Positions 22,962 to 50,440 of a stretch of DNA of 64,000 nt are shown here, one piece after another (the first letter of the stretch is position 1; every line of letters starts with the position of its first letter). Made by a program: the position numbers and the translations under genes. The notes beneath the pieces were generated by a model. It made no database searches. It was not told the DNA's origin and was given only the letters and a program-made list of their open reading frames with translations. Source of the stretch: Flavobacterium gilvum (GTDB taxonomy: Bacteria; Bacteroidota; Bacteroidia; Flavobacteriales; Flavobacteriaceae); contig NZ_CP017479.1 of the NCBI RefSeq assembly GCF_001761465.1, positions 2,542,001-2,606,000 of the forward strand, in the 5' to 3' direction.

Positions 22962-23011
22962 AATAATTGGCTGTTTGTAATTTTTTTTTCAATTCTAAAA
23001 TTAAAAATATA

Positions 23012-24715: not shown

Positions 24716-24736
24716 ACTTAGTATATTTCTGATTTT

Positions 24737-25894: not shown

Positions 25895-25942
25895 GAAACT
25901 AAGATTCTTAGAATCTCAGAATCTCAGTAACTTAGTTTCTTA
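25892..25942. repeat. Palindrome of the CTAAGAAACTAAG family overlapping a stop codon
   Basis: TAAGAAACTAAG (25892-25903) and CTTAGTTTCTTA (25931-25942) are a perfect 12-base inverted repeat; the middle repeats GAATCTCA twice. The first three bases are the stop codon of the Gfo/Idh/MocA gene. The element fills most of the 69-base gap inside the operon and does not look like a terminator, since translation-linked genes continue on both sides. Confidence 0.7.
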
Positions 25943-25963
25943 ATTAATTTTAAATCACAACAA

Positions 25964-27016: not shown

Positions 27017-27044
27017 AACAAATTTATTAAAGGAATATTATAAT

Positions 27045-27419: not shown

Positions 27420-27426
27420 TCAATTT

Positions 27427-28119: not shown

Positions 28120-28189
28120 AATATTGGAAGTTGAAACTATCTGAATGGTTGTTCCAAAATGACCTAACCAAATAAACCAATCTATTTTT

Positions 28190-29419: not shown

Positions 29420-29437
29420 ACATTTTAAAAATATAAA

Positions 29438-30331: not shown

Positions 30332-30344
30332 TCAATAAGAAATA

Positions 30345-32343: not shown

Positions 32344-33510
32344 ATGGATTTTAAAGAAATTGAAATTATAATCATTAAGTATTTTTCCCAGTCGGCAAAT
32401 ATGTCTGATTTGGATATTTTAAACCAATGGATAGAAGTTCCAGAAAACCAATTGATTTTCCTGGAATATGTAAAAACGCATTTTGCAGTCACATTAGCTA
32501 TGAGTGATCCGGATATAGAATCTGTTAAAGAGATATTGCTGAAAGAGATTAGAAAAGAAAAGAAGAGAGTTCGTATCTATCGACTCCGTGCAATAATGAA
32601 ATACGCCGCAATAGCTGTTGTATTTTTAGGGATAGGTATTTTAATGCAGAAGAATATCTTTGGCAATAACATTACTAAAGAAATAATTGTACCTAGAAAA
32701 GATGTAATTACATTAAAATTAGGAGATGGAAATGTCAAAATTATTTCTGCTGATGGAACTTCAAAAGTATATGATGCCAACGGAAAGGTTGTCGGCGAAC
32801 AGAATGGCAAAGAGCTGGTATATACAAATAATGGCAAAGCAACTAAATTAGTATATAATACTCTAACAATTCCTAGAGGAAGACGTTTTAATATTACCCT
32901 TTCCGATGGAACAGTAGTGTATTTAAATGCCGGAAGTTCTATGACTTATCCAGTTCAGTTTATTAAAAACAAAAATCGAAAGATATTCTTAACAGGTGAA
33001 GCTTATTTTGATGTCACTCACGATAAAAAACATCCATTTATTGTCAATGCCAGCAAACTAGATGTACAGGTTTACGGGACAAAATTCAATGTCAGTAATT
33101 ATCCGGAAGATCAGGCCACTGATGTAGTGCTTGTTGAAGGCTCCGTAGGTATGTCACAGGCGGGACTCCCTCAAAAGGCTGAAAACGAATTCTTTTTAAC
33201 TCCCGGATATAAAGGAACTTTCAACAAAGAGGACAAGAAAATTTCTAACGAAAAGGTAAATACTTCATTATATACGTCATGGATGACCGGTAATCTTGTT
33301 TTTAGAAATGAATCTTTTGCAAAGATTGTTAAAAAATTAGAACTGCACTACAACGTGCAAATTATCAATAATAACAAAAATTTGGCAAACGAAACTTTTA
33401 ATGCCACAATTGAAACTGATCATGAAACCATTGAACAGGTATTCAATTACTTTAAAAAAGTTTATCAGATTGACTACACTATTGTAGAAAACAAAATTAT
33501 AATCAATTAA
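32344..33510 (+). CDS. FecR-type anti-sigma factor
   Basis: 388 residues. An N-terminal cytosolic sigma-binding part (residues 1-80, ILNQWIEVPENQLIFLEYV), one membrane segment (about 86-103, MKYAAIAVVFLGIGILM), then the periplasmic FecR domain with RGRRFNITLSDGTVVYLNAGSSMTYP, FLTGEAYFDVTHDKKHPFIV and VYGTKFNVSNYPEDQ, and a DUF4974 end (RNESFAKIVKKLELHYNVQI). It should hold the ECF sigma factor until the SusC STN domain signals substrate transport. 177 bases ahead of SusC in the same direction. Confidence 0.93.
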   Translation: MDFKEIEIIIIKYFSQSANMSDLDILNQWIEVPENQLIFLEYVKTHFAVTLAMSDPDIESVKEILLKEIRKEKKRVRIYRLRAIMKYAAIAVVFLGIGILMQKNIFGNNITKEIIVPRKDVITLKLGDGNVKIISADGTSKVYDANGKVVGEQNGKELVYTNNGKATKLVYNTLTIPRGRRFNITLSDGTVVYLNAGSSMTYPVQFIKNKNRKIFLTGEAYFDVTHDKKHPFIVNASKLDVQVYGTKFNVSNYPEDQATDVVLVEGSVGMSQAGLPQKAENEFFLTPGYKGTFNKEDKKISNEKVNTSLYTSWMTGNLVFRNESFAKIVKKLELHYNVQIINNNKNLANETFNATIETDHETIEQVFNYFKKVYQIDYTIVENKIIIN

Positions 33511-33687: not shown

Positions 33688-36600
33688 ATGAAAAAACCAC
33701 CAAAGGCCAATGGATTATTTCCGGCGTGCTTAAAATTTGATTTAAAAATGAAGTTATCACTATTATTTTTTGTCACTGCAAGCTTTGTTATACAAGCAAA
33801 TGAATCGTATTCCCAAAAAACAAAAATTTCTTTAAATAGAGAAAACACTACAGTAAAGGAAATAATCGATGAAATTGAAACTACTACAGAATTTAAGTTT
33901 TTATTTAATACCAAGGCTGTTGATTTAAACCGAAGGGTTTCTGTCAAAGTCCAAAAAGTGTCAGTAAATGTTATACTCGATCTTCTTTTTAAAGGGTCTG
34001 ATACTTCATACGAAATTGATGATCGAAAGATTTTACTAACTAAAACAAAAAAAAACAAGACAGAAATTGTCAGTTTGCCCAATCCTGTTGATCTGCCTCC
34101 TATAGTTGTAAAAGGGACAGTCTTAGATTCTAAAGGACTTCCTGTATCTGGAGCCAATGTCCTAGTAAAAGGGACTAATGTTGCCACAGAAACAGATTTA
34201 GATGGTAATTTCTCGATTAATGTACCTGATAAATCATCCAAGTTGGTTATTTCTTATATAGGTATGGAATCACAAGAAGTTGCCATTGGGAATAGTCCGC
34301 TTAAAATTGTTTTAAAAGATCAAGGACAAAAATTAGATGACGTGGTTGTTATTGGATATGGTACGCAAAAAAAAATATCCCAAACTGGAGCCATTACAAA
34401 AATAAAAACCCAAGAATTAAACAATATTCCAGCTTCAAACCTTTCTACTTTGTTAGCTAACAGAGCTTCTGGAGTTTTCGTTCAGACAGCTTCTGGAATA
34501 CCTGGTCGAGCATCTATTGTCAAAATTAGGGCCTCTTCCTCATGGAATGGTGGAACTCCTTTATTTGTAATAGATGGTGTAATCCGGGATCAAGCAAGTT
34601 TTGATCTCTTGGACCCTAGTCAAATTGAAGATATCACTATTTTAAAAGATGCAGCATCAGCTGCTATATATGGATCACGTTCTGCAGATGGTGTTTTATT
34701 GGTCAGAACAAAAGTTGGTAAAATAGGTAAACCAGTTGTCCAATTCAATTCTGCTTTTGGTGTATATAGTCATCCAGAGATTGACGATTTATATATGGAT
34801 CCAAATTATGGAATGGATGTTATGAATGCTATAAAACCAGGCTCAGTGAATGATTATGATAGAGCTTGGGTTAACAAGAATAATCCCGATGGGAGGTTGT
34901 GGTATAACGAAGCTTATGAGAATCCAACAAATCAAAAAATTGGTTTGAATATTTCAGGAGGTAATGAATATATTACCTACTTCTTTGGAGGATCATATTA
35001 TAATGAAAATGGATTTTTGCCACAAGTAGGTTATAAAAAATATAATTTGAGATCAAATGTTCAAGTCAAAATAGCTAAAGATCTGACGGCGGGAATAAAT
35101 ATAAATGGGAGTAATGGACTTAATCATAGATTTGGCTTAGCTCTTTCTAATTCGAATGCGGATCCTCTTGATGTTGGACAGTATTATGGAATATTGAGAT
35201 ATATGGGAGGCGGATTTACTCCCCCTTATATTGACGGCAAACCTGTTTCCCCAGGTTGGTTGGGAGGTAATGCTATTGATGTTATGAGAAATGGGGGATA
35301 TTGGAAAAAAGAAGATCAGAAGAATGATGTGCTTCTTTCACTAGAGTATAAACCTTCTTTCATCAAAGGATTGTCATTGAAGGGGTCTTACAGTTCTAAT
35401 ACAGATAATACTTTTATTAAAACTTTTGAGAAAAAACTTATAAATTATCATTTTAAGCCAGATCCATTGAGTGCTACAGGTTCTGTTTTAACAAATGAAT
35501 TAGTGAGTAGCGAACCGGGAGGATCCCCATCGCAGCCCTATATTGGAAATGAAAATGGGAAACTTAAATCGTATCAGATAAATGGAATAATAACTTATGA
35601 TACTCGTTTTAAGGATCATCATTTCAATATTGTTGGAGTTTTTGAAAAGTATGGGTCTAATTATACGTTCTCAAAATTATATAAATACGATTTTCCATAT
35701 TATACTTCTGATCAGTTTTTATTTGCCAGTCCAGCCTCTACCAATACACAAGGTTCTGGTTTTGAAACTGAAGAAGCCCGTTTATCGTATGTGGGTAGGC
35801 TTAATTACGATTATGCAGATAAGTATTTGTTATCATCATCAGTTCGTGTAGATGGATCAATGAAGTTCGCACCAAACAAAAGATGGGGTACGTTTCCTTC
35901 TACTTCTCTAGGGTGGGTAGTTTCCAAAGAGAATTTCTTTGCAGAATCAAAAATAGGATCTGTTATAGATTTTATGAAACTTCGTTTTTCTTACGGAGCT
36001 ACAGGAAATGATTCCGTTGGTGGATGGCAGTGGAAAGATTTATATAATGCTGCCACTTATCCTTCAGGTAATCCTGTGACTAGTAATACTTTTTATGTTG
36101 GGAACCCTGGGTCGCAATCATCCATATTGCAATATGGAGGTATTGCTAACCCTAATCTTACTTGGGAAACATCTGAAGCGTATAATATTGGTCTTGATTT
36201 GACATTCTTCAAGAATTGGAATTTTACTGTAGAGGCATGGAAAAAACATTCATATAATATTTTAGGTGAGCGTATCCTTGCGCTACCAGTTGAATTTGGA
36301 ACAAATTATCCGGCTGAAAATTATGGAATTGTTGATGCACATGGAATTGAATTTGAATTAGGCTATGTAAATGGTACAATTGGTAAAGATTTTACGTATA
36401 ATGTACATGCAAATTTTGGTTTGGCAGAGACTAATGTGGTGAAAAAAGATTATGCAGCAAATTCATTGCCAGCTCAAAATCCAAACGGAAAACCATTAAA
36501 TTACTTGGTAGGATATCAAGATACGGGTATTATCCGTACACAAGAGGACTTGAATAAATTACCAGCTGGTTATAAAATATTTGGGGCTACTCCAGAATTG

Positions 36601-37194
36601 GGGATGATGAATTTTCAGGATGTAAGTGGTTTAGATGGTAAACCTGATGGCGTTATTGATTCATATGATCAAGTGGTAATCGCCAAACATGCTTCAACTG
36701 GGCAAATGGGAGTAGGTAATAATGCGCCTATGTCCTATGGATTGTCAATGAATTTTAAATACCAAAGATTTTCATTGGATGTATTGTTAGGAGGATTAGC
36801 CGGTTATAAAATAAGTTATAACGATCCTTTTGGTAGAAATGCAGGAGGAATGATGCTTCCAGCCTATTTAGGTAATGCATGGTCAGATACCAACCCAAAT
36901 GGGACAGCACCTAAGCTTTTCAAAAATGGGGATCAACGTGCAAATGGATATGTTGTGACATCTACTTATAATCTTTATGATGGAAGTTTCTTGAGACTGA
37001 AAAATATTAATCTGTCTTATGACCTACCTACAGGGATAGTAAATAAAGTAGGGATTGGTTCGGCACAAATATTTGCTGGAGCTTCTAATTTGTTTTGTTG
37101 GACAAAATTTAAATTCTATGATCCTGAAGCATATGGATTTGGAACATATCCTGCCAATACTTCAGTAATATTGGGGCTTAACATTCAATTTTAA
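33688..37194 (+). CDS. SusC/RagA TonB-dependent transporter with STN signalling domain
   Basis: 1168 residues, outer membrane. The start with a long n-region (MKKPPKANGLFPACLKFDLK) before the hydrophobic signal is common in this type. Domains: STN/secretin-TonB N-terminal domain (about 48-118, KTKISLNRENTTVKEIIDEI), carboxypeptidase-D-regulatory-like domain (about 140-215, VVKGTVLDSKGLPVSGANV), TonB plug (about 220-345, LDDVVVIGYGTQKK, PLFVIDGVIRD, ILKDAASAAIYGSRSADGV) and the beta-barrel ending in LGLNIQF. The STN domain talks to FecR, so transport and gene control are linked. With SusD it takes in an oligosaccharide. Confidence 0.96.
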   Translation: MKKPPKANGLFPACLKFDLKMKLSLLFFVTASFVIQANESYSQKTKISLNRENTTVKEIIDEIETTTEFKFLFNTKAVDLNRRVSVKVQKVSVNVILDLLFKGSDTSYEIDDRKILLTKTKKNKTEIVSLPNPVDLPPIVVKGTVLDSKGLPVSGANVLVKGTNVATETDLDGNFSINVPDKSSKLVISYIGMESQEVAIGNSPLKIVLKDQGQKLDDVVVIGYGTQKKISQTGAITKIKTQELNNIPASNLSTLLANRASGVFVQTASGIPGRASIVKIRASSSWNGGTPLFVIDGVIRDQASFDLLDPSQIEDITILKDAASAAIYGSRSADGVLLVRTKVGKIGKPVVQFNSAFGVYSHPEIDDLYMDPNYGMDVMNAIKPGSVNDYDRAWVNKNNPDGRLWYNEAYENPTNQKIGLNISGGNEYITYFFGGSYYNENGFLPQVGYKKYNLRSNVQVKIAKDLTAGININGSNGLNHRFGLALSNSNADPLDVGQYYGILRYMGGGFTPPYIDGKPVSPGWLGGNAIDVMRNGGYWKKEDQKNDVLLSLEYKPSFIKGLSLKGSYSSNTDNTFIKTFEKKLINYHFKPDPLSATGSVLTNELVSSEPGGSPSQPYIGNENGKLKSYQINGIITYDTRFKDHHFNIVGVFEKYGSNYTFSKLYKYDFPYYTSDQFLFASPASTNTQGSGFETEEARLSYVGRLNYDYADKYLLSSSVRVDGSMKFAPNKRWGTFPSTSLGWVVSKENFFAESKIGSVIDFMKLRFSYGATGNDSVGGWQWKDLYNAATYPSGNPVTSNTFYVGNPGSQSSILQYGGIANPNLTWETSEAYNIGLDLTFFKNWNFTVEAWKKHSYNILGERILALPVEFGTNYPAENYGIVDAHGIEFELGYVNGTIGKDFTYNVHANFGLAETNVVKKDYAANSLPAQNPNGKPLNYLVGYQDTGIIRTQEDLNKLPAGYKIFGATPELGMMNFQDVSGLDGKPDGVIDSYDQVVIAKHASTGQMGVGNNAPMSYGLSMNFKYQRFSLDVLLGGLAGYKISYNDPFGRNAGGMMLPAYLGNAWSDTNPNGTAPKLFKNGDQRANGYVVTSTYNLYDGSFLRLKNINLSYDLPTGIVNKVGIGSAQIFAGASNLFCWTKFKFYDPEAYGFGTYPANTSVILGLNIQF

Positions 37195-37212: not shown

Positions 37213-39108
37213 ATGAAAAGAAATATTCAATCATTATATATAATCCTACTTTCAAGTTTATTGTTCACAGGTTGTTCATCAGACTTTTTAGATGTGGAAC
37301 CTACAACTGCTCTTACCAATGATCAATTATGGAGCAGTTCGACAGCAGCGACAGCCTTTTTGGATAAGGTTTATAATAACGAAATGCCTGGAGTAGCATA
37401 TGGAACGGGGCAACCGGGAGGATGTATGCCAACTGTATTTAACTGGTGGTGGGGTGGAACAGGTGGATGGGTAGCAAATACCGATTATCTGAATTATGGA
37501 AATGGAAATGGTACCGACGAAGCAGTTCCTGTAGGACGTTTGACGGATAAATTCCTGTTAGGTCAGGCAACCTATGACTGGCTCGAAAATTATGATTCTC
37601 CTGGAATATCAAATAGTTGGGCAGTTAAAGTATATAGTGACATTAGAACGGTCAATCAGATGTTAGATAATATTGATAAAGCTACTTTTGATGAAACTTC
37701 CAAAAATAATATCAAAGGACAAGCATTGTTCTGGAGAGCGTGGTGTTACAATAAGTTAGTGAAGGATGTCGGTGGAGTTCCCCTTATTCTTACTGCTCAA
37801 GCAGTAGAAGCAGATCTTACCAAATTACAGGTACCAAGAAACAAAACTTCGGAATGTGTGGCTCAAATTTTAAAGGATCTTGATCAAGCAATTAGTCTTT
37901 TGCCGGATACATGGTCTGGTGCTAATTTAGGGCGAATTGATAAAGGGGCCGCGATGGCATTTAAGGGTAGAGTTCTCCTCTTTTTTGCAAGTCCCTTATT
38001 TAATGGGCTGGGAGGAGTTGCTTCATGGCAAAAAGCCTATGATGCCAATTTGGCTGCCGTCAATTTTTTAAATTCCAAGGGAAAAGGTTTGTATCCTGAT
38101 TACAATAAAATTTGGTCTGACGAAGGAAATAATGAGGGAATCATGGTAAGAAGGTTCAATACTCCAGATGCCACCTATCCTGCACCGGGTTTCGCCCCAT
38201 TAAGATATTCTGCGGATGATTGGGGTGTAGATAGCCCATCATTAGAATTACTTGATGCATTTCCTATGAAAGATGGTTCGAAATGGAATCCAGCAACTAT
38301 GTCTTACGCAACTTTATTTAAGAACCGTGATGACCGATTCTATGCTACTGTTTATTATAACGGAGCACCGATTCAATTTACGCCAAAAATGGCAACAAAT
38401 AAAGAATATTTTTGGACTTATATTGACGATATTATTGGGACAGAACCGACAACAGGAGCGGTATTGGCGTCTGCTAATAATAATGGTGTTACTCCATCAT
38501 GGACTTATGGAGAGGGGATAGGGGTTACCTCTTGCTTCCTTCGATTAAAAGCGGTAGACCGATCTGCATCTGATGTTGAACATTCTGGATTGGATTGGCC
38601 AGAAATCAGGTATGCCGAAGTTTTAATGAATTTTGGAGAAGCAGCCAATGAAATGGGTATGACTAATGATGCATTAGATGTACTTTATAAGATTAGGCAG
38701 AGAGCAGGGATTACTAACACGAATGGGAAATATGGAATTACAGCATCTTCTCAATCTGAGATTCGTGTTGCCTATCAAAACGAGCGCTTCGTAGAATTTG
38801 CTTTTGAAGGAAGACGATGGGATGATTTAAGACGTTGGAAGTTGTTTGGAAATTTAAGAAGTCAGTCAAGAAGACACGGCCTGCTTGTAGTTAGAAAATC
38901 AAGTGTTCCAAAACCTGCAGTTGCACCAATGGATGACATTAATACTGTGTGGAATAGGTTTGACTACATCAAAACCGATGGTGATCGTGGTAATCTAGTT
39001 ATTCCTGATCAGTATTATATTTACGGTTTACCCTATGCTTTCTTACAGCGAAATCCTTCGCTTAGACAAAATAATAACTGGGGTGGTGACTTTAATCCGC
39101 TTCAATAA
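37213..39108 (+). CDS. SusD/RagB outer-membrane glycan-binding lipoprotein
   Basis: 631 residues. Lipobox LLFTGCSSDFLDVEPTTAL, lipid on Cys about 21. RagB/SusD helical domain with KVYSDIRTVNQMLDNIDKA, GQALFWRAWCYNKLVKDVGGVPLI, RIDKGAAMAFKGRVLLF, and the closing region AYQNERFVEFAFEGRRWDDLRRW. The lid protein for the SusC channel; the pair starts 18 bases apart. The N-terminal half is rich in Trp/Gly (FNWWWGGTGGW), likely at the ligand site. Confidence 0.96.
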   Translation: MKRNIQSLYIILLSSLLFTGCSSDFLDVEPTTALTNDQLWSSSTAATAFLDKVYNNEMPGVAYGTGQPGGCMPTVFNWWWGGTGGWVANTDYLNYGNGNGTDEAVPVGRLTDKFLLGQATYDWLENYDSPGISNSWAVKVYSDIRTVNQMLDNIDKATFDETSKNNIKGQALFWRAWCYNKLVKDVGGVPLILTAQAVEADLTKLQVPRNKTSECVAQILKDLDQAISLLPDTWSGANLGRIDKGAAMAFKGRVLLFFASPLFNGLGGVASWQKAYDANLAAVNFLNSKGKGLYPDYNKIWSDEGNNEGIMVRRFNTPDATYPAPGFAPLRYSADDWGVDSPSLELLDAFPMKDGSKWNPATMSYATLFKNRDDRFYATVYYNGAPIQFTPKMATNKEYFWTYIDDIIGTEPTTGAVLASANNNGVTPSWTYGEGIGVTSCFLRLKAVDRSASDVEHSGLDWPEIRYAEVLMNFGEAANEMGMTNDALDVLYKIRQRAGITNTNGKYGITASSQSEIRVAYQNERFVEFAFEGRRWDDLRRWKLFGNLRSQSRRHGLLVVRKSSVPKPAVAPMDDINTVWNRFDYIKTDGDRGNLVIPDQYYIYGLPYAFLQRNPSLRQNNNWGGDFNPLQ

Positions 39109-39171: not shown

Positions 39172-39729
39172 TCTTGAATTAATATTTTTGTATTAGTTAT
39201 GCAAATCAAGAGTTAAAGTATTTAAGTTTATAAAGGCAGCTACTATCTTTCCAAACAGATGTGGTAAGAATTCTTTTGTGGATTTAATTTTATATCTTTT
39301 TTGAATATTTTTTCAATAAACCTGTTAAAAAAAGAATCGATTGACACTTTATCTCTATTTCTAATTTCTTGACATTCACCTTTTACGGCTTTAGACTGAA
39401 TAATTTCAAGTTTAAAAGTGCATCGAGTGTGTTTTAAATATTTTGATTTTCAGACTTTTAAGATAAAATATTTAAACGAATTATATCTTTATTAATTGCA
39501 TTTATTACTGCTTTTTCACACTTGGATTACATTATAAACCAGATTTTTGAAACATTGCTTTTACTAAAGTTTTTTCAAAGATAATTTTATTAGCAACCGA
39601 AAAATACAAATTCGTTAATTAAAGCTTATACTATTTTGATCCGTTGGTGGTAACACAGGAATTTTAAAGAATGGTATTGTAATAAATTGTTTGTCACAAA
39701 AAAATACTTTTTATAAGCTCAAAAAAAAA
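39172..39729. other. Long AT-rich gap inside the PUL, no gene
   Basis: No coding frame with sensible composition is seen on either strand. The gap divides the sensing/transport half from the enzyme half and presumably holds a separate promoter for the dioxygenase gene. No convincing TAnnTTTG box with spacing was found. An A10 run directly precedes the ATG at 39730. Confidence 0.5.
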
Positions 39730-40710
39730 ATGATTATGGGAAATTTAAATTTATCAAATGATTTGGCAGATTATTGCCATTCGATAAGTAACATGTTTGT
39801 ACAACCAAAGACAGCAAAAGAGTGGGAGCAATATATGTTGTCTGAAGAACAAGTTTCTTTCTTTAAAGAAAACGGATTTGTCAAGGGAATAAAAATCCTG
39901 ACAGAAGAACAAGTTGATATACTTAACCAAGAACTTGTAAAATTACAATCTGTAAACGAAGCAGAGAAAAAATTATTTTATCATTATGAAAGCAATGAAT
40001 CAGTAGACCCAAGCAAAGTGCTCTTTCATGCAATTGGCGGTTGGCGTGTAACTCCAGGATTTCATGATTTGTTTTGGGCACCTGCGTACCGCATGGCAGC
40101 CTATCAATTATTGGGACAATCCTTTAGGCTTTTTCATGACCAATTGTTTTGCAAACCAGCTAAGCATGGAGGAGTAGTGGCATGGCATCAGGATTTTTCA
40201 TATTGGACATTTACTAAACCAATGCACCATCTCACTTGCTGGATAGGCTTAGATGATGCAAATGTAGAAAATGGTTGTCTCTATTTTGTTCCAGGAAGTC
40301 ATAAATGGGGGTTGTTACCTATTACGGGATTAACGGGAGATATGGATGCAGTAAGAGAAATTTTGAATAAAAAACAATTAGAGCAATTTGATAATAGCAT
40401 TGCCAATGAATTACCAAAAGGATATGCTAGCTTTCATCATCCACTTACAATGCACGGATCCTATGCAAATACCTCAGATCGTTCGAGAAGAGCGATTGTT
40501 CTAAATGCTATGAACTATAATACATTAGGAAATACAGCAGGCTACAGTAGATTAGAAGCCTTAAAAAGTTTTCCAACTATGGAACAGGATAAAGTACTTG
40601 ACAGCAATTTTTTTCCACTTTTATTTGATGGAGATAAAGAGTTAGAAGCTTTAGGCAAAAATATACCTAAAGTTGATTATACAGAACTCTATAATTATCC
40701 TAATAATTAA
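39730..40710 (+). CDS. PhyH-type Fe(II)/2-oxoglutarate dioxygenase
   Basis: The start is set at the ATG at 39730 (MIMGNLNLS, 326 residues); a TTG at 39691 is not believed. No signal peptide, so cytosolic. The phytanoyl-CoA dioxygenase fold is clear: SFFKENGFVKGIKILTEEQV, RLFHDQLFCKPAKHGG, facial triad H153 and D155 in AWHQDFSYW and H242 in LTMHGS, 2-oxoglutarate-binding arginine in RSRRAIVLN. CWIGLDDANVENGCLYFVPGSH is a typical PhyH segment. Such enzymes hydroxylate or oxidatively demethylate small molecules. Its presence in a SusCD locus is unusual, and the substrate might be an O-methyl sugar or other modified sugar released by the locus; that is inference. Confidence 0.88.
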   Translation: MIMGNLNLSNDLADYCHSISNMFVQPKTAKEWEQYMLSEEQVSFFKENGFVKGIKILTEEQVDILNQELVKLQSVNEAEKKLFYHYESNESVDPSKVLFHAIGGWRVTPGFHDLFWAPAYRMAAYQLLGQSFRLFHDQLFCKPAKHGGVVAWHQDFSYWTFTKPMHHLTCWIGLDDANVENGCLYFVPGSHKWGLLPITGLTGDMDAVREILNKKQLEQFDNSIANELPKGYASFHHPLTMHGSYANTSDRSRRAIVLNAMNYNTLGNTAGYSRLEALKSFPTMEQDKVLDSNFFPLLFDGDKELEALGKNIPKVDYTELYNYPNN

Positions 40711-40845
40711 TTACATTGGGCTATTAATTATTCAAAAAAAATAAAATGCTATTGTGTTATTCCTGAGAGATTAGGAATCAAATAATAAATTCACTAAATG
40801 GAGTTTTTTGTTTAAATTCTAAATAAAAATATATGATAAAAAAAC

Positions 40846-43176
40846 ATGAAAAGAAAAGTTAGTTTATTATTCCTGATGCTATCGTTAGTTGTAGTACAAT
40901 TATCGGCTCAAAATCAAACCAATCAAGTCAATGATTTTTTAAAAGATTTGAAAGGTTCATTTAAACCAGTTTTAAATGAATATAAAGGAACTGATTTACA
41001 ATCGTCTCAATCTATTGAAAAGGGGATTTTGAAACTGAACGGTAGCGATTGGAAATGTAAAGTAATGACTTCAAATGCGAAACCTGAAGTGATTGATTTG
41101 AAAGTTACTTTTCAATTGCAAAGCGAATCAGCCAAAGAAACAGCAGTTGTGGCAAATTTTGATTTCAGTCAATGGGACACCAAGAATTATGTAATGATTC
41201 CAGGGATTATTTACAATGGGAATCGCTATAGAACAATTGGGAATGGCTATATGCCAGAATATCCAAAGGATATGTATTACAATCCCGATGCTCCTTTGAC
41301 TTTTTCGAATGACCCGCAATTGTCGCCAGATCCATCAAAACCATCATTGATTGATTTGCAAACAGGAAACATGGCAACACCGGCTGTTTGTTTTTATTCA
41401 CCCACCTTGAAAAAAGGATTCATTTTACTTACCGAACAACAAACCCGCTTTGGAAATTCGGGAATTTCGGTTCGTGAAAATGCGGATCGTTCGGTTGCTT
41501 CGATTCAGGTAAGTGCACCTTCGGTAAGAAAATTGCGTACCGGATTTGGTGATTTTGCACCAAGCGGAGACAAAGCGGCCGATTGGAAAAAGGGGGACGA
41601 GGTGATTTTGAATTTTAAATTGTATTCTTTTCCAGCAAATTCGATTCCGGATTTGTTGAAAAAATTCATGGAAGTTAGAAAAGCTTTGACAGGAGCAAAC
41701 AATCCGAGAAATCTGGTGCCTATGAGTAAACAATTCGAATTGGGAACCGGAATTGCATCAACACGTTGGGTTGAAGTTCCCGTTGGGAAATATTATGCTC
41801 CCGAAAACGGAAACGATTTTCAGTTGGGTTGGGTGAGCGGTATGATGAATACGTTCCCGATGCTGATGTTGAATGACGCAAAAGAAAGAGAAAGAGTAGG
41901 AATCGAATTTGATTTCATCATCGATAAACTGCAAGGAAAGAGTGGATATTTCTATGGAGGAATTACGGCCGCCGGAAAAATACGCCCTGAAAGACAACAC
42001 GCAGATTTTCCAAAAGTGCAGGCTATGGTGCGCAAAAACTGTGATGCTTTGCTTTGGATGACGAAACATTTGATGTTGTATAAAGAATTGGGTTACGGGA
42101 AGGAAATTAAACCGAAATGGGAAGAAGCGACCAAAAAATTAGCTCAGGCTTTTGTAAACACTTGGAAAAAAGACGGTCAATTTGGTCAATATATTGTTCC
42201 GGAAACAGGAGAAGTTGCAGTTTTTAACTCAACTGCAGGGGCGATTGCGCCAGCTGGTTTAGCTGTAGCTTCGGTCTATTTTGGGAATAAAGAATTTTTG
42301 GAAGTTGCCAAAGCATCCGCAGCGTATTATTATAAAAGAGATGTTGAAAAGCAAGGGTTGACAACGGGTCATAGTGGCGATATATCGCAAGATGCTGATG
42401 CAGATTCTGGCTTTGGTTTTTTGGAATCTCTAATGGCTTTGTACAATGTAACCGAAGATGTGCAATGGTTGGAGAAAGCCAAAGTTCAGGCTGCTTTGTG
42501 TTCTTCTTGGGCATTTTCATACGACCCAATTTTTCCGGCTCAAAGTCAAATAGGGAAAAACAAATCGAATATGGCAGGAGCTATTTGGGCTAGTACACAA
42601 AATAAACATGCCGCACCTGGAATTTGTACATCTTCTGGAGATTATCTTTTTAAATTGTATCGTGCAACTGGAGATTCAAAATATGCAGAATTAATCAGAG
42701 ATATTCAACACGCCAATGTTGAAGCCATGGATATGCCAGACCACAGAACTACAAATCACGGTTTTGGAACAGAAATGGAACGTATCCAACTTTCGGATGC
42801 CGAAGGCAAAGGAGCGATTGGGAATTTTTATAATACGCGAAACTCTTGGTGCGAAACCAACGGGGTTTTTATGGCATTAGAACTTCCGGGTGTTTATGTA
42901 CAAACAGATACAAATAAATTATTTGTATTTGACCATGTTGAAGCGAAATGGCTGAAAGATAGTAAAGTCATAATATTGGAAAATAAAACAACCCATGATG
43001 CCAAAGTGGCTGTTTTTGCCGAAACTTCAAAACAAGCTCAAACACCTATGAGTTATGTTGCTTTTACAAAATGGCCAAAAGTAGAAGTAAAAGCAGGTCA
43101 AAAAGTAATCGTTAACTTCAATAGTGACGGAACTGTGAAATCTGTTATTCCAACAGTTCAAGGAGTAAAAAAATAA
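40846..43176 (+). CDS. Uncharacterised secreted protein, twin A (possible alpha/alpha-barrel glycosidase or lyase)
   Basis: 776 residues with a signal peptide ending VVVQLSAQ (residue 22). I do not recognise a named family. The first ~300 residues read as beta-sandwich (VANFDFSQWDTKNYVMIPG, YNGNRYRTIGNGYMPEYPKD, GFILLTEQQTRFGNSG), the central and C-terminal part as helical hairpins (GFGFLESLMALYNVTEDVQWL, YFGNKEFLEVAKASAAYYY), as in (alpha/alpha)6 barrels of glycosidases and lyases, followed by a short beta domain. Invariant-looking blocks shared with the 45832-48186 protein include PETGEVAVFNSTAGAIAPAGLA and TGHSGDISQDADADSGFGF. These two flank the GH67N-like gene, so they probably act on the same glycan. 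Confidence 0.8.
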   Translation: MKRKVSLLFLMLSLVVVQLSAQNQTNQVNDFLKDLKGSFKPVLNEYKGTDLQSSQSIEKGILKLNGSDWKCKVMTSNAKPEVIDLKVTFQLQSESAKETAVVANFDFSQWDTKNYVMIPGIIYNGNRYRTIGNGYMPEYPKDMYYNPDAPLTFSNDPQLSPDPSKPSLIDLQTGNMATPAVCFYSPTLKKGFILLTEQQTRFGNSGISVRENADRSVASIQVSAPSVRKLRTGFGDFAPSGDKAADWKKGDEVILNFKLYSFPANSIPDLLKKFMEVRKALTGANNPRNLVPMSKQFELGTGIASTRWVEVPVGKYYAPENGNDFQLGWVSGMMNTFPMLMLNDAKERERVGIEFDFIIDKLQGKSGYFYGGITAAGKIRPERQHADFPKVQAMVRKNCDALLWMTKHLMLYKELGYGKEIKPKWEEATKKLAQAFVNTWKKDGQFGQYIVPETGEVAVFNSTAGAIAPAGLAVASVYFGNKEFLEVAKASAAYYYKRDVEKQGLTTGHSGDISQDADADSGFGFLESLMALYNVTEDVQWLEKAKVQAALCSSWAFSYDPIFPAQSQIGKNKSNMAGAIWASTQNKHAAPGICTSSGDYLFKLYRATGDSKYAELIRDIQHANVEAMDMPDHRTTNHGFGTEMERIQLSDAEGKGAIGNFYNTRNSWCETNGVFMALELPGVYVQTDTNKLFVFDHVEAKWLKDSKVIILENKTTHDAKVAVFAETSKQAQTPMSYVAFTKWPKVEVKAGQKVIVNFNSDGTVKSVIPTVQGVKK

Positions 43177-43198
43177 TTAACAAAAGAAACTTATATAA

Positions 43199-45781
43199 TT
43201 GAAAAAAAAATTAATACTAATAGCTTTTGTTCTATGTCAAAGTGGATATTCAAATGATATTACTTTGAAGAACAAATTATCTTCGATTTCGGTTAACGAA
43301 AAAGGATTTCTCACGAATACAAAAGACCCCAAAACAGATAATACATTGGTAATTGTCTGTCCTGATAATTCTTCACCGCAGCTAAAGCTCGCAGCGAAGG
43401 AACTACGTCGTTACATTTATTTGCGAACTGGCAAACTCTTGCGAATTTCATCTAAAAAAGCGACACAATCCATCACTTTGATAATAGATTCCAAACTTCA
43501 AACACAGGAATACAGTCTAAAGTCTACCGGAGAATCATTGGTGATTTCTGGCGGATCGGGCGTGGCCGTGCTTTATGGAGCATATGGATTTGTAGAAAAA
43601 TTGGGTGTGCGGTTTTATCTTCATGGCGATGTTGTTCCCGATGGGAAAATTTCATTGCATATTCCGCAACTCAATGAAACCCAAAAACCATTCTTTGAAT
43701 TGCGTGGTATTCAACCTTTTCATGACTTTCCAGACGGGCCCGATTGGTGGAATCAGGATGATTACTTAGCTTATATTGGGCAGCTTGCCAAAATGAGAAT
43801 GAATTTCATCGGATTACATTGTTACCCGTATCGTAAGGATAATGTTCCAAAAAAAGGAGACATGATGATTGGACCCGAGCCATTGGTGTGGTTCGGACTT
43901 CCACAAGATATTAACCCTGACGGAACGGTAAAATCAAGCTATCCAACATGGTGGGATAATACCGCACGGGATAGCGGCTGGCCATATGGTTCGCTCAAGA
44001 CTTCTGAATTTACTAACGGTTCTGCTCAATTGTTCCCTACGGATATATACGGCCCAGATGTTATGGAGGGGATGATGCCTTTGCCTAAAACAGCGGAGGA
44101 ATCCAATGAATTGTTCAACCGTGTAGGTAAACAGATGGGGATTGTATTTGCGGAAGCAAAAAAGGTTGGAGTAAAAACGTGCATAGGTTCGGAAACCCCT
44201 TTTATCATGCCACCTGCTCTTGCAGAACACTTAAAACAGTTAGGCAAAGATCCGAAAGCACCAGAAACTATAGCGGAGGTCTACGAAGGCGCATTTCAAC
44301 GAATAGCAAAAGTAATGCCGGCAGATTATTACTGGCTCTGGACAAGTGAAGGGGATTTGCATAAAAATCCAGAGGGAGTAAAGCGCGACCTGTTAATTGC
44401 TTACAATGCTTTGAAAAAAATCAGTCCATCCGTGCCTTTGGCAACTTGTGGCTGGGGTTTTAACCCGGCTTACGATGCCTTTTTGCCTAAAGATAGCCCA
44501 ATGAGTGGTATCAGTGCAGAATTTGGACATTATAGCCTTTCGCCAGCGCTTGCTGACATTCAAGGACGTCCCAAATGGGCAATCCCATGGTTTGAAAACG
44601 ATGTGAATTTGGCAGGCTATCAGCCTTGGGTTGGGCGTCTTCGACAGGATGCTGTTGATGCACGCAGATTTGGAGCAAACGGATTGATGGGGCTTCACTG
44701 GCATGTTAAATCTATGATGAACAATATTGCTGCACTAGCTCAGGCTGGTTGGGATCAATCATACGTTGCAAAGAATTTTAATATTGTACCTGTTTCTTCG
44801 GGGAAAGGATTAAATGTATTGAAGGAAACCCGTATGATGCCCATTGACGATTATTATGAGGATTTTGCGAAGGCGAATTTCGGTTCAAATAAAGCGAAAG
44901 AAACTGGAGGTATTTTGGCTGAATCCGAAAAAATGCAGACATCGCTGAAAGGTACAGCCCACCGCCCAGACCCAACCGGTTGGGGGACATTCTGGGGGGC
45001 GCAAGGTGCTTTACAATCGGATCCGGAAATGCATGCTTACGCACAGAAGAACGGCGAATTAGCCGAAAGATTTGCTAAGCTCCGTCAGAATATCAAAGGT
45101 GCAGGTAATCTAGAACGTTTTGATTATTGGCTGACTATGCTACGCATCCAAACAGCGATGTATGAGGCAGGTGCTGTGCATGGAAAATTGCGTGTAATTG
45201 TGGCTGAGATGGAAAAAGAAAATGATCCGGTAAAGAAGAAAGATTTAGCAAGCAAGGCCATAATAATACGAGCCGAAGTGGTTCGCGCATGGGATAAAAT
45301 TATGCAGTTGGAAATTATATCCGCCAGCACTCCCGGTGATCTTGGTCTTATTGCCAATTTGGAACGCAATAGCCGTATTTGGGATAATTGGTTAAATCGC
45401 TTTGATACAACAATTGAGAAAGTGACTGGCAAGCCAATGCCTGCTGATTGTGCACCATCGATGAATTATACTGGGCCAGCAACGATTAAAGTGTTTACGG
45501 TACGGTCTTCCTTGCATCGTGGAGAAGTCTTAGAATTGCGTCCTGTAGTACTAAGTGCAGAACAGTCAAGTTCTGTAATAGTCAAATGGCGTAAACTGGG
45601 GGAAAAAAACTGGCAGCAATCCAGCGCTGTTAATGTGGGGCGTTCTGTATGGACTGTTAAGTTACCCACAGCAACTGAGGATTTTGAATATCATATTATT
45701 GCTAATGGTGCTAATGATCAAAAACTGATTTGGCCAGCAACTGCTCCTATGCAAAATCAAACAGTAATCGTGACAGAGTAA
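43199..45781 (+). CDS. GH67N-like secreted protein (alpha-glucuronidase-type N-domain plus TIM barrel)
   Basis: 860 residues. The start is a TTG at 43199: an in-frame stop TAA lies directly before it, and the signal peptide (MKKKLILIAFVLCQSGYS) begins there, so TTG is really used. Residues ~50-155 match the alpha-glucuronidase N-terminal domain type (LKLAAKELRRYIYLRTGKLL, AVLYGAYGFVEKLGVRFYLH). A TIM barrel follows (FELRGIQPFHDFPDGPDWW, LAKMRMNFIGLHCYP, YYWLWTSEGDLHKN, PLATCGWGFNPAYDAFLP, GLMGLHWHVKSM), then helices and a C-terminal beta domain from about 755. Not a canonical GH67, whose length is ~700. Substrate unknown; uronic-acid or related side chains are a guess. Confidence 0.8.
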   Translation: MKKKLILIAFVLCQSGYSNDITLKNKLSSISVNEKGFLTNTKDPKTDNTLVIVCPDNSSPQLKLAAKELRRYIYLRTGKLLRISSKKATQSITLIIDSKLQTQEYSLKSTGESLVISGGSGVAVLYGAYGFVEKLGVRFYLHGDVVPDGKISLHIPQLNETQKPFFELRGIQPFHDFPDGPDWWNQDDYLAYIGQLAKMRMNFIGLHCYPYRKDNVPKKGDMMIGPEPLVWFGLPQDINPDGTVKSSYPTWWDNTARDSGWPYGSLKTSEFTNGSAQLFPTDIYGPDVMEGMMPLPKTAEESNELFNRVGKQMGIVFAEAKKVGVKTCIGSETPFIMPPALAEHLKQLGKDPKAPETIAEVYEGAFQRIAKVMPADYYWLWTSEGDLHKNPEGVKRDLLIAYNALKKISPSVPLATCGWGFNPAYDAFLPKDSPMSGISAEFGHYSLSPALADIQGRPKWAIPWFENDVNLAGYQPWVGRLRQDAVDARRFGANGLMGLHWHVKSMMNNIAALAQAGWDQSYVAKNFNIVPVSSGKGLNVLKETRMMPIDDYYEDFAKANFGSNKAKETGGILAESEKMQTSLKGTAHRPDPTGWGTFWGAQGALQSDPEMHAYAQKNGELAERFAKLRQNIKGAGNLERFDYWLTMLRIQTAMYEAGAVHGKLRVIVAEMEKENDPVKKKDLASKAIIIRAEVVRAWDKIMQLEIISASTPGDLGLIANLERNSRIWDNWLNRFDTTIEKVTGKPMPADCAPSMNYTGPATIKVFTVRSSLHRGEVLELRPVVLSAEQSSSVIVKWRKLGEKNWQQSSAVNVGRSVWTVKLPTATEDFEYHIIANGANDQKLIWPATAPMQNQTVIVTE

Positions 45782-45831
45782 ATAATATCTCGAACAATAA
45801 TTTTTCAATGAATTAATATAATTAGCTAGTT

Positions 45832-48186
45832 ATGGTAGAAAATAAAAATGGTTTAAAGATTGGTAAAAGTAAGTTGCGAAATGTTATACTGTTATTGGCT
45901 TTGGTGGGCATTGTTAATAGCAATGCATCAGCTCAAACAGACCCATCTATACTACCACTGTTAAGAGAAGTGAAGGGAGTTTTACGCTGTAATATTACAT
46001 CTTATCAGGATACTAATGTTTTACAAAAAAGTGTATTCTCAAGTAAAGAATTAAATACTACTTCAGGACGCTGGACATTGCAAATGCAAAGTTCTCCTGT
46101 TGCAAAGAGTCCTAATGCAATCGATGTAAATGCAGTATTTCAGCTCAAGGAGGGAACGGCCTCAGCTTCGGCGGTGTCAGTATCGTTCGACTTTAGCCAA
46201 TGGAGTAGTAATAATTACGTATTGGTACCGGCTAGTGTTTACAATGGTAATCGCTATCGAGCCATTGGGAATGGTTATATGCCCGATTATCCAAAGGATA
46301 TGTATTATAATCCCAAGGTTCCGTTAACTATCTCGAATGATCCTCGCCTTAATGTAGATAAGGGGAAGGCATCATTGATTGAATTACAAACAACCAATGC
46401 TAGCACCCCTGCCATGTGTTTTTTCTCTCCAAAGGAAAAGAAAGGGTTTATTGTACTAACGAATCAACAGACAAGGTTTGGTAACAACGGATTATCAATC
46501 GTAGAAAATGCGAAGCAGGATAGTTGTTCCTTTCAAATTTCGGCTCCTTCCATGCGCAAGATGGCTACCGGCTTTGGCGATTTTCATGCAAGCGGGGATC
46601 GTGCTCCTGACTGGAAGGCCGGGGATGAATTGTCATTACAGTTTCGTGTGTACGTATTCCCTGCTAACGATATTCCGGATTTGCTTAAAAAATTCATTGA
46701 AGTTCGTAAAAGTTTTACTGGTTCTAATGAACCACGTAATCAACTCCCAATGAGTAAACAGTTTGAGGTAAGTACTGCCATTGCTCGCAATAATTGGTAT
46801 GAGAATTCCACTGTGAATTTTTATAGAACGGGGAACAGTAATGATTTTCGATTAGGTTGGGTGGCTGGCATGATGAATACCTATCCGATGCTTGTTTTAA
46901 ATGAGGAAAAAGAAACGAATAGGGTTGAAAAAGAACTTGATTTTGTTGTGAATAAACTGCAAGGAAAAAGTGGATTCTTTTATGGAGGAATCACCGGAGG
47001 TGGAAAAATTATTCCTGACAAGATGAGTAAAGATTATCCGGCTATTCAGGCAATGGTAAGGGTAAATAGTGATGTATTGCTTTGGTTCATGAAGCACTTT
47101 ATGCTGTTAAAGGCTCAGGGTAAATCCTCTTTTATTAAACCCGAATGGGAAAATGCAGCAAAGAAATTAGCACAAGCATTTGTCGTTACCTGGAATAAAT
47201 ATGGCGAGTTTGGACAATACATCGTGCCCGAAACAGGGGAAATTGCTGTTTTTAACTCAACAGGCGGCGCTATTGCGCCGGGTGGACTTGCATTGGCTGC
47301 AAAATATTTTAATGAACCTTCTTTTTTAAACGTTGCAAAAGCTTCAGCCGATTATTATTATCAAAGGGATGTTGTGAAGCAAGGACTTACTGGAGGTCAT
47401 TGTGAGGACATTTCCCAGGATGCGGACTCCGAATCTGCTTTTGGCTTTTTGGAATCATTAATGGCGTTATATTATACTACTAATGATGTTCAATGGTTAA
47501 AGAAAGCTGAAGTTCAAGCTGCTCTTTGTTCTACATGGACCTTATCTTATGATCCAATTTTTCCTAAAAACTCTGCGATAGCCAAACTTGGTTGTCACAT
47601 GGCTGGCGCTGTATGGGCTAGTATTCAAAATAAGCATGCCGCTCCAGGTATTTGTACCGCATCGGGCGATTATTTATTCAAACTTTATAGAGCAACGGGT
47701 AATAAGCTTTATGCTGATTTGATTAACGATATTCAGCATGCTAGCGCTGAAGCAACTAACATGCCCAATCATATTACAACAAACAATCTTATAGGTTCTT
47801 CAATGGAACGCATCCAACCTTCTGATGCAGAAGGAAGAGGAAGTATAGGCAATTTTATTAATACAAGAAACACGTGGACGGAGACGAATGGTATTTTGAT
47901 GGCTATGGAGTTGCCTGGTATTTATTTGCAAACAGATACTAGAAAATTACAAATATTTGATCATGTGGAAGCAAAGATCGTTAAGTCCTCTGCTGCAGGT
48001 GTTGTGTTGGCTATATCCAATAAAACCATTTATGATGCTTCGGTTACATTATTTGCTGAAACCAGTAAAGATGCAAGTAGAGTAATGGACTATACAAGTT
48101 TTCTGAATTGGCCAAAGCTTGAAGTGAAAGCTGGGGGAAATATAAGCGTATTGGTTGCTAAAAACGGTAAAGTAACGTTGTTATAG
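45832..48186 (+). CDS. Uncharacterised secreted protein, twin B (paralogue of 40846-43176)
   Basis: 784 residues with a signal peptide (RNVILLLALVGIVNSNASAQ) after a longer polar start. Same architecture as twin A: N-terminal beta part with YNGNRYRAIGNGYMPDYPKD and GFIVLTNQQTRFGNNG, central helical part with PETGEIAVFNSTGGAIAPGGLA, HCEDISQDADSESAFGFLES and AAPGICTASGDYLFKLYRATG, and a short beta end. Long blocks are near-identical to twin A; the N-terminal 60 residues and several loops differ (for example TGHSGD in A against GGHCED in B), as expected if the two attack different linkages or anomers of one glycan. 50 bases past the GH67N-like gene. Confidence 0.8.
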   Translation: MVENKNGLKIGKSKLRNVILLLALVGIVNSNASAQTDPSILPLLREVKGVLRCNITSYQDTNVLQKSVFSSKELNTTSGRWTLQMQSSPVAKSPNAIDVNAVFQLKEGTASASAVSVSFDFSQWSSNNYVLVPASVYNGNRYRAIGNGYMPDYPKDMYYNPKVPLTISNDPRLNVDKGKASLIELQTTNASTPAMCFFSPKEKKGFIVLTNQQTRFGNNGLSIVENAKQDSCSFQISAPSMRKMATGFGDFHASGDRAPDWKAGDELSLQFRVYVFPANDIPDLLKKFIEVRKSFTGSNEPRNQLPMSKQFEVSTAIARNNWYENSTVNFYRTGNSNDFRLGWVAGMMNTYPMLVLNEEKETNRVEKELDFVVNKLQGKSGFFYGGITGGGKIIPDKMSKDYPAIQAMVRVNSDVLLWFMKHFMLLKAQGKSSFIKPEWENAAKKLAQAFVVTWNKYGEFGQYIVPETGEIAVFNSTGGAIAPGGLALAAKYFNEPSFLNVAKASADYYYQRDVVKQGLTGGHCEDISQDADSESAFGFLESLMALYYTTNDVQWLKKAEVQAALCSTWTLSYDPIFPKNSAIAKLGCHMAGAVWASIQNKHAAPGICTASGDYLFKLYRATGNKLYADLINDIQHASAEATNMPNHITTNNLIGSSMERIQPSDAEGRGSIGNFINTRNTWTETNGILMAMELPGIYLQTDTRKLQIFDHVEAKIVKSSAAGVVLAISNKTIYDASVTLFAETSKDASRVMDYTSFLNWPKLEVKAGGNISVLVAKNGKVTLL

Positions 48187-48289: not shown

Positions 48290-50440
48290 ATGAAAAAAAG
48301 CACTTTATTTATTTTATTCCTATTAGGTATAAATAATTTTTATGGTCAAAATAGGAGTGACAAAGAAGCTTTACAAATAGCAAATGATTTATTGTCAAAA
48401 ATGACGTTGTCTGAAAAAGTATTATTGATTCACGGTGATCATATATACAGTTCTCCCGGATTAGAAAGATTGGGTATTCCACGATTTTACCCTAGTGATG
48501 GTCCTTGTTCAATACGACCTGAATTAACGGACAAAGGAGAATATCTTCATGCCGGAGATACGATAGATTGTGCAACGGCATTTCCTACATTGTCTGCATT
48601 ATCTGCAACTTGGAATCCTCAACTGGCAAATCAGTTTGGTGATGCAATATCCAGCGAACTCAGAGCTCGAGGAAAGGATATGTACCTTGGGCCGGGAGTG
48701 AATATTATGCGAACTCCTATATGTGGTCGCAATTTCGAATACATGGGAGAAGATCCTTTCCTGACTTCGTCTATGGCAGTTCCTCTAGTTAAGGGTGTGC
48801 AGAAAAATAATGTGTCGGCTTGTATTAAGCATTTTGCCTTAAATAACCAGGAGTTGGAGCGATTCTCTGTGAATGTAGTAGCCAGCGAGCGGGCACTACA
48901 TGAAATTTATTTCCCAGCCTTTGAGGCAGCTGTTAAAAAGGGAGGAACATTGGGCTTGATGGGAGCATACAATAAGATCAATGGTGATTGGTGTTGTGAA
49001 AGTGACTTCCTTTTAAACAAAACCCTAAAGCAGGATTGGGGCTATAAAGGTGTAGTAATAAGCGATTGGGGAGCTGTTCATTCATTGATAAAGGCAGTTC
49101 AGGCAGGGTGTGATTATGAATCAGGTAACTCAAGTCATTATGGCCACATTGAAAAGGCTATAAATGAAGGTAAATTGTCCGTTTCGGATGTAGATGAGAA
49201 AACAAGAAGGCTGTTATGGGTGTTTGCCAAAATCCGTATGGTTGGTCCAGGTTCTGAGCAAAGAGAAAAGGGGAAATTGCGTACTGAGAGCCACAAAATG
49301 GTGGCCAGAAAAATTGCAGAAGAATCGATTGTTCTATTGAAGAACGACGAACAAATTCTACCGTTAGACAAAAATAAAATTTCAAAACTCCTCATTGTTG
49401 GAAAAATAGCTAATGCTAGATTGACGATAGATGTTAATACAAAAGGACCTTGCGATCTTTTAACCGGTGGTGGTAGTGGCGAAGCAAAACCATTATATGA
49501 AATAACACCTTTAGAAGGAATTAAACGTTACCTATCTACTTCTGCAAATGTAGAGTATATAGAGTCGGCCAACTATAGTGATGCAAGTTTTATACAAAAA
49601 GTAAAAACAGCCGATGTTGTTATCGCTTTTACAGGAAATACCCATGCTGAAGAACAAGAAGGTCAGGATCGAAAAGACATTACCCTCCCTGAGGGACAGG
49701 ATGAAATGGTGAAAGCTGTTCTTGCAATACAACCTAAGGCAGTTATTATCAATCAGAGTGGTGCTCCGGTAGCTATGCCATGGTCAAATCAAGCAAAAGC
49801 AATCGTGCAAAATTGGTTTAACGGCCAAGAAAATGGAAATGCGCTAGCTCGAGTTATTTTCGGAGATGTGAATCCATCAGGAAAATTAAGCAGTACTTTC
49901 CCAAAACAGCTGTCTGATGTTGCCTGTCACTCATTAGATGCTTATAAGGCCGTAAGCGAAAATTATAAAGAAGACATTTTGGTAGGTTATCGTTGGTATG
50001 ACAAGCAAAATATTGATCCTCTTTTTGCTTTTGGGCATGGTTTGTCGTATGCTAAATTTCAATATGGGAAAATTAAAATTACGCAATTAAAAAAAGGTAA
50101 CACTATTAAAGTTATTATTCCTGTTAAAAACATAAGTAACAGAGCGGGCGCAGAAGTAGTACAGTTATATATCCATGAAAATACTCCTTCAGTTTTAAGA
50201 CCGAATCAAGAATTGAAGGGCTTTCAGAAAGTACAAATAGCTGCAAATGAAACTAAAGAAGTGGTGTTGTATTTAACCGCAAAAGATTTTTCTTATTGGA
50301 GCGAAACAGCACATGATTGGAAATATGATTTTGGAAATTATGAAATTAAAGTAGGATCATCTTCCCGTGATATTAGGGTTAACAAAAAGATTGTTTTAGA
50401 AAAAGACTTTGCAATCAAATTACCGACAAGTGGGTTGTAA
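48290..50440 (+). CDS. Glycoside hydrolase family 3 (beta-glucosidase/beta-xylosidase type)
   Basis: 716 residues, exported (signal peptide ends NNFYGQ, residue 20). The GH3 N-terminal barrel has GIPRFYPSDGPCSIR, GPGVNIMRTPICGRNFEYMGEDP, CIKHFALNNQELERF and the nucleophile D259 in VISDWGAVH. The C-terminal alpha/beta sandwich shows GNTHAEEQEGQDRKDITLPEGQ, where the usual acid/base Glu lies, and VIFGDVNPSGKLSSTFPKQ; a fibronectin III-like domain closes the protein (VVQLYIHENTPSV). Complete and of normal length. Last enzyme of the PUL, likely to release terminal beta-linked glucose or xylose. Confidence 0.93.
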   Translation: MKKSTLFILFLLGINNFYGQNRSDKEALQIANDLLSKMTLSEKVLLIHGDHIYSSPGLERLGIPRFYPSDGPCSIRPELTDKGEYLHAGDTIDCATAFPTLSALSATWNPQLANQFGDAISSELRARGKDMYLGPGVNIMRTPICGRNFEYMGEDPFLTSSMAVPLVKGVQKNNVSACIKHFALNNQELERFSVNVVASERALHEIYFPAFEAAVKKGGTLGLMGAYNKINGDWCCESDFLLNKTLKQDWGYKGVVISDWGAVHSLIKAVQAGCDYESGNSSHYGHIEKAINEGKLSVSDVDEKTRRLLWVFAKIRMVGPGSEQREKGKLRTESHKMVARKIAEESIVLLKNDEQILPLDKNKISKLLIVGKIANARLTIDVNTKGPCDLLTGGGSGEAKPLYEITPLEGIKRYLSTSANVEYIESANYSDASFIQKVKTADVVIAFTGNTHAEEQEGQDRKDITLPEGQDEMVKAVLAIQPKAVIINQSGAPVAMPWSNQAKAIVQNWFNGQENGNALARVIFGDVNPSGKLSSTFPKQLSDVACHSLDAYKAVSENYKEDILVGYRWYDKQNIDPLFAFGHGLSYAKFQYGKIKITQLKKGNTIKVIIPVKNISNRAGAEVVQLYIHENTPSVLRPNQELKGFQKVQIAANETKEVVLYLTAKDFSYWSETAHDWKYDFGNYEIKVGSSSRDIRVNKKIVLEKDFAIKLPTSGL

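Follow-up and report, generated by a model that had tools for sequence, protein, structure and literature searches.

A PhyH-type dioxygenase, candidate sugar O-demethylase, apparently displaced from an alpha-mannosidase operon into a recombined polysaccharide utilization locus of Flavobacterium gilvum

Operons for the utilisation of N-glycans and high-mannose glycans encode proteins of the glycoside hydrolase (GH) families GH92 and GH38 together with PNGase F-like proteins, and to our knowledge an oxygenase is not part of this type. In snails and other organisms, sugars can be capped by methyl ethers, which are believed to stand in the way of ordinary catabolism. As a way around such caps we found, in a literature that was thinly searched, only the P450 route for 6-O-methyl-galactose (PMC10033563). 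That paper describes gene clusters holding the P450, redox partners, an esterase, and a dehydrogenase, and reports that ZoADH is required for growth on 6-O-methyl-galactose. Here we analyse a stretch of 64,000 nucleotides of Flavobacterium gilvum (G000:C1:2542001-2606000, hereafter the window; positions are window coordinates unless genome Mb are given), which contains a polysaccharide utilization locus (PUL) with a gene for a PhyH-type dioxygenase. This gene is the part worth following, as a candidate methyl-hexose O-demethylase apparently displaced from a mannosidase operon. The best explanation overall is a recombined PUL with the dioxygenase as a cytosolic O-demethylase of methyl-hexoses, a reading that, on sequence comparison, we place just short of an even chance.

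The gene row singled out by the original prediction is real: open reading frames (ORFs) and Pfam confirm SusC/SusD, the dioxygenase, twin A, a GH67N-like protein, and twin B, all in the same direction, within a longer single-direction row that begins with FecR and ends with GH3. The locus qualifies as a PUL by its SusC/SusD pair and glycan-active genes (SusD, FecR, and GH3 recognised by Pfam, SusC by BLAST). The further idea that the row is one undescribed system is not borne out, and its distribution across genomes rules it out as a conserved unit. Among the 21 twin-bearing genomes, only that of the window has a full-length GH67N-like protein; six others match short pieces only, mostly of the N-terminal domain. 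The close dioxygenase clade (at least 70% identity) is present in 5 of the 21, the close dioxygenase adjoins a twin only in the window and in genome G507, and orthologues in G857 and G842 show the gene conserved apart from the PUL, which the original prediction had named as a ground for its refutation. We read the locus as a mosaic assembled by recombination, not as a conserved system.

Relatives of the twins are rare in the genus (E<=1e-20): they occur in 2 of 299 genomes of one sample (the window's own and one at 33%) and in 1 of 289, again the window's own, of another sample that overlaps the first and consists of more complete genomes. They were found in 18 of 294 Chitinophagaceae genomes at the same threshold. 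Of the five Chitinophagaceae genomes with a close dioxygenase, four also carry a twin, a comparison with the overall frequency that ignores kinship, two of the four sharing a genus. When all dioxygenases are counted, the association with any twin is not significant (5 of 18, P 0.16). A contig of 29894 bp encodes GH67N-like (73%) and twin-like (60%) proteins according to protein lists, which do not imply adjacency. A search of genome contigs gave one locus, in Siphonobacter, where BLAST recognised none of the other genes. No paper linking phytanoyl-CoA dioxygenase with polysaccharide utilization loci was found in the thinly searched literature, so that any claim of novelty is itself weakly searched.

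The dioxygenase ORF is open, and its product passes the PF05721 (PhyH) cut-off over the whole model (116.6 bits against 22; model positions 1-213 of 213). The catalytic motif is intact: HxD...H and the following arginines (H153, D155, H242, R253/R254) are invariant in 16 of 16 aligned sequences. We take H153, D155, and H242 to be the metal site and R253/R254 the 2-oxoglutarate arginine. The score for ectoine hydroxylase (TIGR02408) is 45.9 bits against a cut-off of 336.5, and plasmids gave no relative of the dioxygenase at 1e-40.

The closest genome copies of the dioxygenase are in two other Flavobacterium genomes, G857 (85%) and G842 (81%), where the gene is placed between a TIM-barrel isomerase gene and a GH38 gene; at E<=1e-70, a single close copy was found in G857. 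Neighbouring genes at this and the other loci compared were mostly placed by BLAST clusters or by eye rather than by Pfam. Further members of this operon are a GntR-type regulator (by eye), a ROK kinase with a weak match to a mannose-6-phosphate-isomerase cupin, an XylE-like sugar transporter, GH92, and proteins of the GH94 superfamily and of DUF4838. The window genome keeps the operon at 3.005-3.025 Mb, where the proteins are 84-95% identical gene by gene and a protein with a PNGase F C-terminal domain is also encoded. The place of the dioxygenase is occupied there by a gene for a beta-propeller/phosphoesterase of 812 amino acids (aa) with a PF04185 domain (L087 9314-11752). A relative of this protein (51%) sits in L053, another PUL with a twin, as if twin PULs and mannosidase operons had exchanged genes.

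In the tree, the window dioxygenase groups with the G857 and G842 copies (98/96) and not with the other two close copies in the window genome, paralogues at 1.32 and 3.82 Mb. The 36 bp just upstream of the window gene (Table 1) match G857 (L065) with a score reached by 0 of 500 shuffles; against G842 (L066) the score is reached by 6 of 500, and that match is not convincing. We favour a move of the dioxygenase from the mannosidase operon into the PUL, which seems likely. Movement in the opposite direction also fits the displaced-gene data and is a point against our account, but the putative remnant argues against it.

Displacement would also be compatible with a passenger that landed behind SusD without any role in the PUL, the remainder being an ordinary PUL with six-hairpin and GH20-superfamily proteins. 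The orthologues in another operon, the remnant, the gap of 621 bp between SusD and the dioxygenase, and the inverted repeat after SusD all agree with such an event. Scans for sigma-70 promoters and terminators gave scores at chance level. We find the passenger reading quite improbable in view of the open gene with its intact motif, and of G507, where a dioxygenase, a TIM protein, a member of family X (a protein family that accompanies twins in 9 of 11 loci), and a twin stand independently in one row. Contigs of 687567 bp (F. granuli) and 788120 bp also appear to hold both twin and dioxygenase, on the same contig but with no adjacency implied.

Close relatives of the dioxygenase are linked to mannosidases. 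Seven of ten close copies have GH38 or GH92 within 10 kb against 0.43 expected (P 2e-8 if copies are independent); this estimate treats as independent some close kin (G857 and G842; G618, G458, and G549) and leaves out two GH92 fragments of less than 60 aa (2 of 83 matches). A TIM-barrel partner is encoded in the fetched stretch of 6 of the 10 close and 5 of the 15 more distant copies, and an XylR-like regulator in that of 5 of the 10 close ones (Peripla_BP_3 and HTH_18 scanned in L044, the rest by BLAST). In L050 (G458), an apparent operon encodes the dioxygenase, an alcohol dehydrogenase, a PF00756-type esterase, FdhD, and a protein of the FdhF/YdeP family; a regulator, a SASA esterase, and a TIM protein are also encoded at this locus. 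The dehydrogenases of L050 and L074 have 8H2A/8H2B, i.e. FoADH/ZoADH, as their closest PDB entries (to 8H2A, 497 bits for L050 and 627 bits for L074), and in L074 the dioxygenase adjoins the esterase. A P450 with ferredoxin and reductase was absent from the neighbour proteins scanned, a selection of the ORFs. The original prediction had the enzyme remove an oxidisable decoration such as O-methyl, and these neighbourhoods lend it indirect support.

The more distant clade (about 50% identity) provides other contexts, resting on 15 of 48 matches. Six copies are in an amino-sugar cluster with GH20-like, NagB-like, SIS/MurQ-like, and transporter genes (Pfam in L070, BLAST cluster in the other five loci), and three (L068, L069, L074) are near SusC-type or dehydrogenase/esterase genes. 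Since these neighbourhoods differ, the family may have several jobs. They also raise an alternative in which the dioxygenase oxidises a sugar or sugar acid itself, by a C-H hydroxylation that is epimerase- or dehydrogenase-like, within a general pathway that includes the TIM-barrel isomerase and has no methyl role. The occurrence of the TIM-barrel partner with both close and distant copies and the six amino-sugar clusters point in this direction, but the demethylation-type cassette of L050, L068, and L074 is left unexplained, and we consider this alternative unlikely.

Several observations weigh against demethylation. The window dioxygenase has no GH38 or GH92 within 25 kb, and comparison of the window genes turned up no TIM-barrel partner and no dehydrogenase/esterase pair. 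That pair is near just 3 of 25 dioxygenase copies (L050, L068, L074), and in L068 it lies 7 kb away. Six distant copies (L062, L075-L077, L080, L081) have no linked sugar gene recognised among the few neighbours scanned. Thiol-dependent formaldehyde oxidation and formaldehyde dismutation by FoADH/ZoADH were tested and not found, and the role of these enzymes is given as unknown (PMC10033563), which weakens the argument from the cassettes. Finally, the best NCBIfam match of the dioxygenase is methylphosphonate hydroxylase (NF052437).

This last match would suit an enzyme that hydroxylates a phosphonate or phospho-decoration of the 2-aminoethylphosphonate type on glycans, with the phosphoesterase that replaced it doing a neighbouring step. 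The PF04185 domain of the replacing gene and its relative in L053 agree with this, and molluscs carry N-methyl-2-aminoethylphosphonate and phosphorylcholine (PMC8699351). Yet the score is far under the family cut-off (60.1 bits against 500), no PhnZ-like partner is among the neighbours scanned, and the dehydrogenase/esterase pair suits demethylation better. We regard a phosphonate substrate as very unlikely.

If the dioxygenase is a demethylase, SusC/SusD would import oligosaccharides from a eukaryotic glycoconjugate containing amino sugar and fucose, while the exported twins (six-hairpin toroid proteins), the GH67N-like enzyme, and GH3 would trim the glycan outside the cytoplasm. The dioxygenase would act in the cytosol, in trans with the mannosidase operon that it left, and would hydroxylate the O-methyl carbon of a methyl-hexose to give the free sugar and formaldehyde; the demethylated sugar would then be available to kinase and isomerase steps. 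Our first guess for the substrate is 3-O-methyl-mannose, followed by 3- or 4-O-methyl-galactose. In mollusc glycans, 3-O-methyl-mannose and -galactose occur together with xylose, fucose, GalNAc, and GlcNAc (PMC8699351, PMC3372779), and these known methylated glycans would fit the proposed substrate. The enzyme may strip methyl groups from unusual sugars, for example on snail glycoproteins. The wider proposal would be that the PhyH clade of 71-85% copies in Flavobacterium and Chitinophagaceae, and perhaps the 50% clade, is a family of sugar O-demethylases dependent on 2-oxoglutarate; as soluble single proteins they would stand in for the three-component P450 system when Bacteroidota feed on methyl-capped invertebrate-type N- and O-glycans. 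We advance it tentatively and lean somewhat against it; if true, a 2-oxoglutarate demethylase would assign a function to a large set of Bacteroidota PhyH genes.

A second region of the window genome, at about 3.80-3.84 Mb, has another dioxygenase copy, three GH38, GH88, SASA, and GH120-type genes, and the TIM-barrel partner. It also encodes a 756-aa fusion of fatty-acid-desaturase-like, Rieske, and NAD-binding reductase domains (L089 5165-7435, genome 3.831-3.833 Mb); part of a protein 91% like this fusion is encoded at L050 2-646. This apparently self-contained oxygenase is possibly a second candidate for demethylation. Judged by its predicted genes, the region is another oxidative set amid mannosidases.

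The twins and the GH67N-like gene carry a rearrangement of their own. A stretch covering most of twin A was copied from the twin that the window genome has in another PUL, at 3.485 Mb, and continues into the 5' end of the next gene there, a family X member (Table 1). A local tandem duplication of the twins was considered and rejected, as twin A matches the 3.485 Mb copy at 95% and twin B at 60%. Because the copied DNA runs past twin A into the family X 5' end, the GH67N-like gene is predicted to carry a family X signal peptide received from this donor PUL. The gene resembles family X over roughly its first 47 codons and, from near that point on, its own relatives. The start codon is TTG in the window against ATG in the donor gene, and the database copy of the protein has 838 aa, as if the start lay 22 codons downstream.

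Table 1. Features of the PUL in window coordinates
Feature	Position	Strand	Basis
FecR-type anti-sigma factor of PUL	32344..33510	+	PF04773, PF16344
SusC, TonB-dependent glycan importer	33688..37194	+	ORF; BLAST to SusC of other PULs, best 50-51% (L060); STN and plug by eye
SusD	37213..39108	+	PF07980, PF14322; 62% to SusD of L060
36 bp, putative remnant of source operon	39691..39726	+	resembles TIM-barrel isomerase gene end and leader before G857 dioxygenase
PhyH-type Fe(II)/2-oxoglutarate dioxygenase, proposed cytosolic O-demethylase	39730..40710	+	Pfam, motif, tree; no signal peptide by eye
Twin A	40846..43176	+	signal peptide by eye; N-terminal beta domain, (alpha/alpha)6-type toroid, C-terminal beta domain
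Stretch copied from PUL at genome 3.485 Mb	40888..43341	+	40888-43146 at 95.8%, 43178-43341 at 85.5%
GH67N-like enzyme	43199..45781	+	GH20b/GH67N-type domain, TIM barrel, helical and beta domains after ~47 foreign N-terminal residues
Twin B	45832..48186	+	60% identical to twin A
GH3 enzyme	48290..50440	+	PF00933, PF01915, PF14310; starts 103 bp past twin B

Relative to the family, twin B carries the changes E320G, Q326R, R348T, and K397V, in the numbering of twin A. For GH127 (PF07944), twin A scores 19.9 bits against a cut-off of 24.9, and twin B gives no match at E<=0.001. A PDB sequence search with a twin gave nothing convincing, which does not show a new fold; among six-hairpin toroid proteins (GH76, the polysaccharide lyase BACCELL_00875, GH127, epimerases), identity is just 6-14% in the listed matches. 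Elsewhere, the neighbours of twin relatives include GH20, GH123, GH95, GH29, and GH110 and are mostly hexosaminidases, fucosidases, and galactosidases (11 of 12 matches at or above 45% identity outside the window and the Streptomyces plasmids, a short G564 fragment being left out). Because of this company, twin contexts seem to point to amino-sugar and fucose-rich glycans rather than to uronic-acid branches, whose trimming by the exported proteins had been predicted and finds little support. Beside the second twin copy, L005 8356-19957 encodes five tandem family X members of about 750 aa; the family showed no Pfam domain in the one member scanned and no PDB relative at E 0.1 in the one searched. 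Twin relatives at 54-55% are also found on two Streptomyces plasmids (L090, L091), typed mobilizable and far from Bacteroidota, one of which has a GH120-type gene nearby.

The GH67N-like protein of the window has no Pfam family at E<=0.001, Glyco_hydro_67N included, and PF03648 is precomputed on P0004, P0050, and four more of 120 listed relatives. A single-sequence PDB search gave no match, and the matches of a profile were confined to the N-terminal domain of GH20 and GH115 enzymes (E 0.0002 to 0.2), which shows no new fold. Despite the little support for uronic acids, the best matches of its model include alpha-glucuronidase folds (GH115, GH67). Within the GH20/GH84/GH89/GH67/GH115/GH138 superfamily, identity is 8-16% in the listed matches and no family cut-off is reached. 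Retaining enzymes of clan GH-A have glutamates after strands 4 and 7. The proposed catalytic residues, E384 (after strand 4) and E466 (after strand 7), are unlike the GH20 D-E pair and nearer to this arrangement.

Other genes of the window lie upstream of the PUL. Those at 22967-31214 (a GMC oxidoreductase, Gfo/Idh/MocA, three xylose-isomerase-like TIM proteins, a 3-keto-disaccharide hydrolase, and a nucleoside-type symporter) look like a 3-keto-glycoside pathway. At 14756-17289, in the vicinity of GH2 and GH35 genes, each strand encodes a UxuA mannonate dehydratase, and the two are 46% identical.

The locus illustrates two ways in which PULs evolve: one gene has been captured along with the signal peptide of another, and an operon has apparently been left without its oxygenase, which is now in a distant PUL. 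The putative source operon resembles N-glycan operons in its GH38, GH92, and ROK proteins and, in the window genome, in the PNGase F C-terminal domain; unlike them, the window PUL has no recognised mannosidase. The P450 demethylation of 6-O-methyl-D-galactose by porphyran-using Flavobacteriia (PMC10033563) would be alike in chemistry, with oxidation of an ether methyl and release of formaldehyde, and a close relative of its alcohol dehydrogenase is found, together with an esterase, in 3 of the 25 dioxygenase loci. In contrast to that system, the oxygenase here is a PhyH-type 2-oxoglutarate enzyme, whose close copies have alpha-mannosidases as neighbours.

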